Shown here: positions 2,787 to 14,862 of the stretch, piece by piece | Layout of the letters: each line of letters begins with the position of its first letter | Position numbering within the stretch: position 1 is the stretch's first letter | From: Labedella gwakjiensis | GTDB lineage: Bacteria; Actinomycetota; Actinomycetes; Actinomycetales; Microbacteriaceae | Length of the DNA stretch: 64,000 nt | Reading direction: 5' to 3' | Assembly (NCBI RefSeq): GCF_003014675.1 | Contig: NZ_PYAU01000001.1 | Coordinates: forward strand, 992,001-1,056,000 | Position numbers and translations under genes: made by a program | Notes under the pieces: generated by a model | Told to the model about the DNA's origin: nothing | The model's input: only the letters and a program-made list of their open reading frames with translations | Database searches by the model: none

Positions 2787-4013
2787 TCAGCGACGACGCG
2801 CGCCGGTGATCTCCGTGCGGGCGAGCGCCGAGCGAATGTCGGCGACGAGGTCGTCGGCGTCCTCGAGGCCGACGGACAGGCGCAGATGACCGTAGGTGCG
2901 GAAGCCCTCCGGATAGCCGTCGCTCCCGCCGCGCGCACCCGGCCCCACGTGCACGATGAGCGACTCGTCGTGCCCGAGCGAGACCGCGGACGTGATCACG
3001 CGCAGGTTCGACACGAAGCGGTTCTGCGTCGCGGGATCGCCGTCGAGGGCGAACGCGAGCATCGCGCCGTATCCGCGCCCGCCGAACTGCCGGGTCGCGA
3101 GCGCGTGCTGGGCGTGCCCCTCGAGACCCGGGAACTCGACGAACGCGATCCGCGGGTCGTCGGCGAGTACGCGGGCGACCCGCTGGGCGGACGCGAGATG
3201 CTGCGCGAGACGGAGCGGCAGCGTGACGGAGCCGCGCATGATGAGCCAGGCGTTGAACGGGGAGATGACGCCGCCCACGTCCACGAGGGCGTCGTGTCGG
3301 ATCCGGTCGACGAGGGCGGACGAGCCGATCACCGCTCCGCCCATCGCATCTCCGTGGCCGTTGATGTATTTCGTGAGCGAGTGGACGACGAGATCCGCGC
3401 CGTCCGCGAGCGCGCGGTAGAACGGCGGCGGAGTGAAGGTGGCGTCCACGGTGAGGAGCGCACCCGCGTCGTGAGCGATGGCGGCGAGCGCCCCGACGTC
3501 CGCCACCGTTGTCGTGGGGTTCGCGATCGTCTCCGCGTGCAGGATGCGGGTGTTCGGCCGGATCGCCGACCGGACCGCGTCCAGGTCGGAGACGTCGACG
3601 AACGTCGCCTCGACGCCGTAGCGCTCGGGCAGGAGTTCGGAGAACAGCCGCCAGACCGCCTCGTACGTCACGTTCGAGACGACGACGTGGTCGCCCGATC
3701 TCAGGAGCGTGAAGAACACGGCGTGCAGTGCGGCGACCCCGGTGGCGAAGGCCGCCGCCTCCTCTCCCCCCTCCAGCGCGGCGAGCTTCGCCTCGAGCGC
3801 GAGCTGGTTGACTCCCCCGTTCCGCGTGTACATGAGGACGTCCGTGCCGGACCAGTTCATCGCGGCCGGGTCATCCGGCAGCAGATAGGAGTTCGCCATG
3901 ACGATCGGCGTGCGGATGGCGCCGGAGCCGGCGTCGATCATGTTGCCGGCGTGCACGGCCGCGGTGTGGTCGCCGATCGAGCTGACGTCGTCCTTGTCCG
4001 GCTGCGTGGTCAT
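2787..4013 (-). CDS. PLP-dependent trans-sulfuration-type enzyme (cystathionine/methionine gamma-lyase family)
   Basis: This is a 408-residue fold-type I PLP enzyme of the Cys/Met metabolism family, acting on sulfur amino acids such as cystathionine, homocysteine or methionine in the cytoplasm. Visible motifs are the N-terminal TAAVHAG, the TRNGGVNQLALEAKLAALEGGE segment that binds the cofactor of the partner subunit, the PLP-binding Asp in LLTVDATFTPP, and the Schiff-base lysine K215 in HSLTKYINGHGD. The C-terminus has the family's RLSVGLED motif. Whether it is a gamma-lyase, a beta-lyase or a gamma-synthase cannot be decided from sequence alone. The ATG at 4013 directly abuts GGAGG, an unusually close ribosome-binding site. 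Confidence 0.85.
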   Translation of the reverse strand: MTTQPDKDDVSSIGDHTAAVHAGNMIDAGSGAIRTPIVMANSYLLPDDPAAMNWSGTDVLMYTRNGGVNQLALEAKLAALEGGEEAAAFATGVAALHAVFFTLLRSGDHVVVSNVTYEAVWRLFSELLPERYGVEATFVDVSDLDAVRSAIRPNTRILHAETIANPTTTVADVGALAAIAHDAGALLTVDATFTPPPFYRALADGADLVVHSLTKYINGHGDAMGGAVIGSSALVDRIRHDALVDVGGVISPFNAWLIMRGSVTLPLRLAQHLASAQRVARVLADDPRIAFVEFPGLEGHAQHALATRQFGGRGYGAMLAFALDGDPATQNRFVSNLRVITSAVSLGHDESLIVHVGPGARGGSDGYPEGFRTYGHLRLSVGLEDADDLVADIRSALARTEITGARRR

Positions 4014-13751: not shown

Positions 13752-13827
13752 TGAGCCGCCACGCGGACCCCGTCCGTCCTGTGGAGAAGATCGTCAGGAT
13801 GTCGGTGGTGGCGGGGATCCTCGATGC

Positions 13828-14862
13828 ATGAGCGCACTTGTTCCCGACGATTACGCGGCCACCCTCGACGACCTGAAGCGGCAGGTGCATACTGCCCGTT
13901 TTGCTGCCCAGAGAAGGGTCAACACCGAGTTGCTTCTCCTCTGGTGGCATATCGGCAACACGATCCTGGAACGGCAGCAGCACGAGGCATGGGGCAGTGG
14001 TGTGCTCGCCCGCCTTGCTGATGATCTTCGTTCCGAGTTTCCGTCGATGAGGGGGTTCTCCCGACGCAATCTCCTCTACATGCAGGCCTTCGCACGGGCT
14101 TGGCCGAGCGCGGACGCAATTGTGCAACAGCCTGTTGCACAATTGCCGTGGGGTCATGTCACAGAGCTCCTCGACAAGCTCGACGACCAGGGTCTCCGGG
14201 ACTGGTACGCCGCGAAGGACGTCGCACACGGCTGGTCCCGCGCGGTCCTCGCCCACCAGATCACCACCCGACTCCACACGCGCGAAGCAGCGGCGCCCAC
14301 CAACTTCGTCGGCGCGCTCTCGCAGCCCGACTCGGAGCTCGCCCAACAGATCACCCGTGACCCGTACGCTCTCGACTTCCTCGCCGTCGACGGGGATGCG
14401 CCCGAGCGCCAGCTGGAAGAGCGGCTCGTCGACCGCATCGTCGACACGCTCCGCGAGCTCGGGCCCGGATTCGCCTTCGTCGGGCGGCAGGTCCACTTCG
14501 ACGTGGAGGGTGACGACTTCTACGTAGACCTCCTCTTCTTCCACGTCCAGCAGCTCCGCTACGTGGTCGTCGAGCTCAAGACGACCGTCTTCGATCCACG
14601 CGACACCGGACAGCTCGGCTTCTACGTGGCCCTCGTCGACGACAAGTTGCGCATCCCCGGCACCCATCAGCCGACCGTCGGCATCCTCCTGGTCGCCGGG
14701 AAGAACGACGCCGTCGTCCGCTACGCTCTCGCGTCGACGGCGCAGCCGGTGGCCGTCAGCCGGTACGAACTCGCCGAGGAGGCGCAGGCCGCACTTCCGG
14801 ACGAGGCGACGATCGTCGGGGCGTTCTCCCGCGAACTCGCTCGGGGCGCTGACGTCGGATGA
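13828..14862 (+). CDS. DUF1016 (YhcG-like) protein with C-terminal PD-(D/E)XK nuclease-like domain
   Basis: This is a 344-residue protein. Residues 10-160 form the DUF1016 N-terminal region (LLWWHIGNTILERQ, FSRRNLLYMQAFARAWP, IVQQPVAQLPWGHV). Residues 175-330 form a PD-(D/E)XK-like domain with D234 (YVDLLFF) and E249-L-K251 (VVVELK). YhcG-type proteins are widespread, patchily distributed and often found in variable regions; their function is not settled, and a nucleic-acid-processing or defence role is plausible. The first third uses AT-ending codons more than its neighbours, including a run within a perfect 31-bp palindrome, so recent transfer is possible. Confidence 0.82.
   Translation: MSALVPDDYAATLDDLKRQVHTARFAAQRRVNTELLLLWWHIGNTILERQQHEAWGSGVLARLADDLRSEFPSMRGFSRRNLLYMQAFARAWPSADAIVQQPVAQLPWGHVTELLDKLDDQGLRDWYAAKDVAHGWSRAVLAHQITTRLHTREAAAPTNFVGALSQPDSELAQQITRDPYALDFLAVDGDAPERQLEERLVDRIVDTLRELGPGFAFVGRQVHFDVEGDDFYVDLLFFHVQQLRYVVVELKTTVFDPRDTGQLGFYVALVDDKLRIPGTHQPTVGILLVAGKNDAVVRYALASTAQPVAVSRYELAEEAQAALPDEATIVGAFSRELARGADVG
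14116..14146. repeat. Perfect 31-bp inverted repeat inside the DUF1016 coding region
   Basis: Arms of 15 bases (GCAATTGTGCAACAG and its exact reverse complement) flank one central C. The element begins exactly at codon 97 and encodes AIVQQPVAQL, a conserved stretch of the family. The codons used (ATT, CAA, CCT, GTT, GCA, TTG) are rare in this GC-rich genome. Confidence 0.85.

Follow-up and report, generated by a model that had tools for sequence, protein, structure and literature searches.

A palindrome within the coding sequence of DUF1016/YhcG nuclease genes varies together with the predicted DNA-reading surface of the encoded protein

Proteins of the DUF1016/YhcG family, a widespread, still uncharacterized nuclease family, probably recognize a palindromic double-stranded DNA site located inside their own coding sequence, as suggested by a palindrome conserved within the gene and by the co-variation of its bases with residues of a predicted DNA-reading surface. 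No earlier description of an in-gene site of DUF1016/YhcG was found in the literature searched for the palindrome and for links to ParB, in which subscription journals were thinly covered. If each protein reads its in-gene site, the targets of most members could be read from their own sequence, and the function of the family would become directly testable. The pairs would also represent a large natural data set on protein–DNA specificity (residue 80 with base 7, 84 with 6, 112 with 4, 109 with 3 and 138 with 2), as well as an example of peptide and binding-site codes that overlap and evolve together.

The window, a stretch of 64,000 nucleotides of the Labedella gwakjiensis genome, contains a DUF1016/YhcG gene at positions 13828–14862 (+ strand), encoding a protein of 344 amino acids and identified from the list of open reading frames, Pfam and PADLOC. 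Two Pfam domains, both far above the cut-off, are present: DUF1016_N (residues 16–152) and the PD-(D/E)XK nuclease domain YhcG_C (residues 173–319). The protein also matches the candidate defence models PDC-S02 of PADLOC (best 2e-130), which describe proteins only, without a DNA site.

A perfect palindrome of 31 bp (14116–14146; no strand is assigned to it or to its parts) lies in frame in this gene, as the sequence-only reading had reported. Its arms, 14116–14130 and 14132–14146, have 15 nt each, are 100% complementary and are separated by a spacer of 1 nt; together they encode residues 97–106 (AIVQQPVAQL) and the first base of the codon for Pro107. The palindrome is supported by an inverted-repeat search, a chance estimate and family-wide conservation. 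Among the synonymous encodings of this peptide, exactly 1 of 147,456 gives a perfect palindrome. Given the peptide and the codon usage of the window, taken from 36 other ORFs chosen by length and codon-position G+C, the chance of a perfect palindrome is 3.8e-14, and that of at least 13 of 15 arm pairs is 1.9e-9. The codons described earlier as rare are indeed so, ATT making up 0.8%, CCT 1.4%, GTT 1.5%, TTG 1.5%, CAA 3.3% and GCA 5.0% of their synonyms in the window ORFs; common codons, GTG (42%) and CAG (97%), are present as well. The claim that the palindrome occupies the most conserved motif of the protein did not hold, since columns 97–106 contain no invariant or near-invariant residue in 41 homologues; residues P107, W108 and H110, directly after the palindrome-coded stretch, are invariant or nearly so in the same set. 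The first third of the gene (region 13800–14200) has a G+C content of 60–62%, compared with about 71% around it.

Conservation of the inverted repeat was assessed in 189 loci from several phyla, with 175 unique DUF1016 ORFs, collected by protein and family searches and supplemented with yhcG of Escherichia coli K-12. The test region was set by protein alignment rather than by hairpin score; 8 of the 175 ORFs, with fewer than 20 residues in it, were dropped, and 200 synonymous codon shuffles of each of the remaining 167 genes served as the null. The mean best stem score was 10.0 in the genes and 4.5 in the shuffles. The observed repeat was reached by no shuffle in 105 of the 167 genes, by at most two in 127 and by at most ten in 147, while 20 genes failed the test, the repeat being degraded in some of them and absent from others. 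At the level of 38 cluster representatives (50% identity), the corresponding numbers were 20, 29 and 35. In a control with one long neighbouring ORF per locus, all 60 shuffles were beaten in 5 of 77 cases, versus 47 of 76 for the DUF1016 genes at these loci. Accordingly, the earlier statement that coding alone cannot explain the palindrome is right: in the comparison it had proposed, the complementarity of homologues lies far above codon-shuffled expectation, and 147 of 167 genes keep the repeat. The computation shows that the palindrome is under selection at the DNA level and that its location in the gene is conserved.

The letters of the repeat often differ between genes, with compensating changes. 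Its structure was analyzed in 145 centre-aligned sites, with base positions (t) counted outward from the centre; sites were included if they had passed the shuffle test and their centre fell on the first codon position, which biases the set to good pairing. Standard pairs are found at t = 3 to 8 in 97–99% of these sites, with three or four pair types per position; t = 10–13 is mostly AATT on either arm, and 140 of the 145 sites have an R-N-Y centre. The family consensus is represented by AATT, eight variable self-complementary bases, RNY, the eight complementary bases and AATT. In the window, family alignment places the centre GCC at 14130–14132, with t = 1 as its R and Y, and the AATT flanks, common family-wide, at 14118–14121 (left, t = 13 to 10) and 14141–14144 (right, t = 10 to 13); alignment and co-variation place the halves of the variable region, hereafter the address, at 14122–14129 (left, t = 9 to 2) and 14133–14140 (right, t = 2 to 9). 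A subgroup of five loci (L129, L134, L135, L136 and L138) has a centre of 5 nt in place of 3 nt, between (TT)GTGCAAG and CTTGCAC(AA). In three loci (L013, L049 and L066), in-frame stop codons precede the palindrome by about 10 codons or fewer.

Additional sites were found in and around the gene. yhcG of E. coli K-12 contains three in-gene palindromes and one 30 bp past the stop codon; an O157-type allele contains one in-gene palindrome, and another allele contains two inside the ORF and one beyond the stop codon. Across 175 loci, with chance palindromes counted, their density per kb is 0.70 inside the gene, 0.35 over the 200 bp preceding the start codon, 0.15 over the 200 bp following the stop codon, and 0.06 and 0.02 at greater distances. 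Searching loci with their own 19-bp core revealed 27 further copies, versus 4 for the reversed core. In 47 loci, compared under loose criteria that admit some chance units, the similarity of sites at t = 2–9 was 0.552 within the same locus and 0.383 between different loci (highest of 500 permutations, 0.455), and similarity within a locus at t = 10–13 was no higher than the family level. Because sites of one locus are alike at t = 2–9 and not beyond the family level at t = 10–13, the bases t = 2–9 are a locus-specific address, as the computation shows. The units within one E. coli gene differ at t = 7–9 yet are nearly symmetric. A second in-frame palindrome of nearly the same address, 186 bp downstream and between the two domains, is present in L056, L059, L067 and L071. 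At locus L080, from a metagenome-assembled genome, about ten palindromes of similar form are scattered through about 4.6 kb on and around the gene; two that are 1.8 kb apart have identical arms.

The predicted structure of the protein comprises a ParB/Noc-like DNA-binding domain and a nuclease core. The former is predicted at residues 34–155 (13927–14292, +), a region covered best by the DNA-binding domains of Noc, ParB and Spo0J (Z 5.7–8.9; moderate support). In the full-length model, the best match of the N-terminal domain is 7nfu_A (Z 8.9, 99 aligned residues, rmsd 3.5). For this domain modelled alone (pLDDT 91.5), the top eleven VIA matches are ParB, Noc and Spo0J proteins (Z 7.5 to 5.7), the next, unrelated one scoring 5.1. 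The top ten Foldseek matches of the domain all belong to the ParB/Noc family, but with weak E-values of 0.49–1.8, and a sequence profile of the domain searched against solved structures gave no ParB among 8 weak matches up to E 10; for these two reasons the ParB/Noc DNA-binding fold of the model is likely rather than proven. The predicted recognition helix includes residues 79–91 (14062–14100, +), and the palindrome encodes two short helices of the predicted structure between it and helix 108–117. The nuclease core, EndoMS/NucS-like in the predicted structure, is formed by residues 188–316 (14389–14775, +), with 5gke_A as the best match (Z 10.9, 112 aligned residues, rmsd 3.1). The accessible text of PMC1189080 names an E-D-ExK motif for the DUF1016/YhcG nuclease family; in 41 homologues, D234 and K251 of its D-ExK part are invariant and E249 is nearly so.

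When address similarity was compared with each alignment column in 103 sequences, overall identity being removed, the best of 301 columns were 138, 219, 84, 194, 169, 80, 159 and 109. Residues 138, 84, 80 and 109 rank 1, 3, 6 and 8 for the address, and 156, 222, 229 and 56 for AATT; residues 194, 219, 159 and 169 in the same top eight lie outside the predicted reading surface. A contact set derived from the literature (76–79, 84, 85, 90, 109 and 112), which relies on a tentative ParB–YhcG residue mapping, exceeded random columns (0 of 5000 draws reached it) and local columns (p 0.0027), gave no signal for the AATT flanks (p 0.49), and gave a signal in either half of the data and a weaker one in the 35 closest sequences (p 0.032); since neither sequences nor pairs are independent in these co-variation tests, the p-values are indicative. 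Mutual information uncorrected for relatedness, unclear by region, had already listed 138, 83, 84 and 109 before the partial correlations were run, and one contact set used for the latter was drawn with knowledge of that list.

At the level of single positions, t = 7 tracks residue 80 with a partial r of 0.60, the next-best column having 0.10. The partners of t = 6 are residues 84 and 81; of t = 5, 114; of t = 4, 112 and 219; of t = 3, 109, 138 and 194; of t = 2, 139, 109 and 138. No residue is clearly tracked by t = 8 and t = 9; t = 8 is nonetheless paired in 142 of 145 sites. Genes encoding Arg80 carry G at t = 7 in 59 of 59 cases and those encoding another residue in 4 of 85, the Arg–G combination occurring in 17 clusters. 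Gly109 is accompanied by C at t = 3 in 73 of 73 sequences, and all 88 sequences with Arg138 have a purine at t = 2. The window gene fits all five rules: t = 7 is G and residue 80 is Arg (codon 14065–14067), t = 6 is C and residue 84 is Tyr, both residues lying in the predicted recognition helix; t = 4 is A with Thr112 and t = 3 is C with Gly109 (codons 109–112, 14152–14163, +); and t = 2 is A with Arg138 (codon 138, 14239–14241, +). In E. coli residue 80 is Lys, which occurs in the sample with both C and G.

The co-variation of the site with the ParB-like surface supports the earlier suggestion that the palindrome may be a binding site for the protein itself. A homodimer, we infer, would bind the two half-sites with its ParB/Noc-like N-terminal domains; in the recognition helix, residue 80 would read t = 7 and residue 84 t = 6, both of them outer bases; among the later residues, 109 would read t = 3, 112 would read t = 4 and 138 would read t = 2; and the AATT flanks would be the part of the site common to the whole family. 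Residue 201 of ParB/Noc presumably corresponds to Gly109 of YhcG, both belonging to a G-H motif. According to the accessible text of PMC7383237, the specificity of ParB and Noc is set by residues 173 and 201, helix residue 173 reading base 1 and residue 201 reading base 6. On our own reading of that text, base 1 would be the outer and base 6 the inner one, so that a helix residue would be paired with the outer base and a later residue with the inner base, as proposed for YhcG. Points that count against self-recognition are the 20 genes failing the shuffle test, the pairing of t = 8 although it tracks no residue clearly, the E. coli units that diverge at t = 7–9 but stay nearly symmetric, the high rank of residues off the reading surface, the poor fit of noncoding copies to the residue rules, the 6 secondary sites of Arg80 genes that lack G and the weak scores of the ParB match.

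The likeliest use of such recognition, put forward tentatively, may be negative autoregulation by a dimer bound to its own gene. Tentative as well, and a little bolder, is the suggestion that the mobile solitary gene encodes a self-addressed nuclease, whose site is written into the codons that specify its DNA-binding domain; reader and address would diversify together, giving many private specificities, and each protein would act on copies of its own gene, leaving those of others alone, for copying, exclusion or self-limitation. That the site is a cleavage target, at which the gene or its incoming copies are cut conditionally, leading to mobility, homing-like copying or exclusion, is possible but rather unlikely, and shares self-recognition with repression. 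Consistent with cleavage are the conserved D-ExK residues and the occurrence of the gene on plasmids and in phage records, with no obvious partner gene in three plasmid records. Sites are present not only just upstream of the start but also just past the stop, where a repressor site would be unexpected; in the orthologue of Labedella endophytica a deletion of 120 bp has its end point within the palindrome; and two E. coli strains have a transposase gene and IS1 at the two edges of palindrome 3. On the other hand, an enzyme that cut constitutively would break the only copy of the gene encoding it, the frames are open in most genes examined, and the L. gwakjiensis genome contains no second copy of the site at up to 3 mismatches. 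The sites inside, upstream and downstream of the gene, its occurrence on chromosomes, plasmids and phages and the conserved nuclease residues fit repression and conditional cutting alike. Repression through a portable operator inseparable from the gene is slightly preferred over conditional cutting of the DNA that carries it, because constant cutting would destroy the carrier.

It is improbable that structure is selected instead of sequence, either as a DNA hairpin or cruciform or as a palindrome maintained by template switching between the arms. The self-complementarity of t = 8 without a matching residue would fit such structure, as would tandem units within genes, 9 pairs of which have different bases at t = 7 and are all still paired, and the concerted change at t = 3–8 in 32 disjoint close pairs (75–99% identity), where 17 differences are compensated and 4 are not; the C-terminal domain was once compared to Holliday-junction resolvases (accessible text of PMC1189080). 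However, the address bases track residues encoded elsewhere in the gene, AATT and RNY are features of sequence, the address is common to sites of the same locus, and comparable repeats are rare in neighbouring ORFs.

Very improbable is the explanation of the residue couplings by contacts within the protein, with the palindrome as a by-product. On the right arm, t = 7 coincides with the middle base of codon 104, and a contact between residues 80 and 104 would therefore mimic a DNA code; moreover, noncoding sites are a poor test of the residue code: in 17 noncoding copies no more than 150 bp from the gene, the residue rules fit no better than the commonest base, and the noncoding sites of L071, L111, L136 and L166 violate two or more rules. 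Against such contacts, the synonymous third base of codon 99 (Val) tracks residue 80, the codon being GTG in all 27 genes that encode Arg80 and GTC in all 44 that do not. Secondary sites, whether they fall on different codons or beyond the gene, also tend to obey residue 80: among 41 such sites in or beside the gene, which are not independent, G at t = 7 is present in 13 of 19 with Arg80 (6 of the 19 lack it) and in 3 of 22 without Arg80.

An mRNA hairpin regulating the gene, another role raised in the sequence-only reading, is barely credible: the window gene could form a stem of at most 14 bp closed by a loop of 3 nt, but G-U cells do not outnumber A-C cells (46 vs 58 at t = 2–14; 4 vs 13 in the core t = 2–8; centres chosen by standard pairs alone, which should not favour A-C over G-U), whereas RNA would favour G-U, which argues for a DNA-level site, and similar palindromes are located on both sides of the ORF, before its start and after its stop. 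Recent transfer, of which the palindrome might be a relic according to the same reading, is not supported, the repeat being family-wide and a congener carrying the gene at the same locus. The site might also serve in recombination or homing, a role named there too.

The proposed system resembles ParB/Spo0J–parS and Noc–NBS in the predicted fold of the N-terminal domain, in the palindromic site and in the apparent setting of specificity by a recognition helix and a later residue; the parS of Bacillus subtilis lies inside the spo0J gene as well. It differs from them in the nuclease C-terminal domain, the longer site with AATT flanks, the clustering of sites at the own gene and the variation of the address from gene to gene; a Pfam scan of the window protein (E 0.001) gave the two DUF1016 domains only and no CTP-binding domain of ParB. 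Palindromes are associated with a gene in RAYT/REP systems also. Rickettsia palindromic elements are palindromes inserted in frame, according to the accessible text of PMC4316617. Unlike both, near-identical YhcG palindromes are not dispersed, the window palindrome being present once in its 3.84-Mb genome at up to 3 mismatches. Homing endonucleases and type II restriction enzymes are nucleases with a long or palindromic target; homing genes interrupt their own target, and restriction enzymes come with a protecting methylase. The candidate YhcG target differs from that of homing endonucleases in being intact inside the ORF and not disrupted by the gene. No annotated methylase was found within 5 kb in three plasmid records, where many genes are hypothetical; an exception, given in the accessible text of PMC1189080, is Methanosarcina acetivorans, where a homologue adjoins a type I restriction cluster.

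Matches to DUF1016/YhcG were found in 13 of 246, 45 of 249, 45 of 148 and 7 of 199 genomes sampled in four phyla, with different E-value limits. Viral contigs searched with the palindrome, its centre base left free, gave 0 stretches; a protein scan of viral contigs gave 2 candidate stretches and no relative; and a phage collection gave no match to a 60-base piece of E. coli yhcG, which started in the right arm of palindrome 3 and included the palindrome incompletely. Two Wolbachia phage WO records (L205 and L206) contain the gene and the palindrome, with different addresses. When two congeners were compared for an empty insertion site, the flank upstream of the gene could not be aligned. The same-locus orthologue of L. 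endophytica (L003/L004/L079) is decayed; its deletion is in frame, with a GTGC microhomology of 4 bp, and the 3' part of the gene is lost. Of 5426 E. coli genomes, 4417 contain yhcG, which is truncated in part of them. Near-identical copies of its palindrome 3 were found at 3377 places in 3376 genomes, and a dispersed repeat was rejected for this palindrome as for that of the window. Among 60 matches to E. coli yhcG, sampled across the list, 10 cover nt 1–406 only. In the strains L190 and L191, yhcG is broken by the transposase gene just past palindrome 3, where the match ends at nt 406, and, at nt 385 in the left edge of this palindrome, by IS1.
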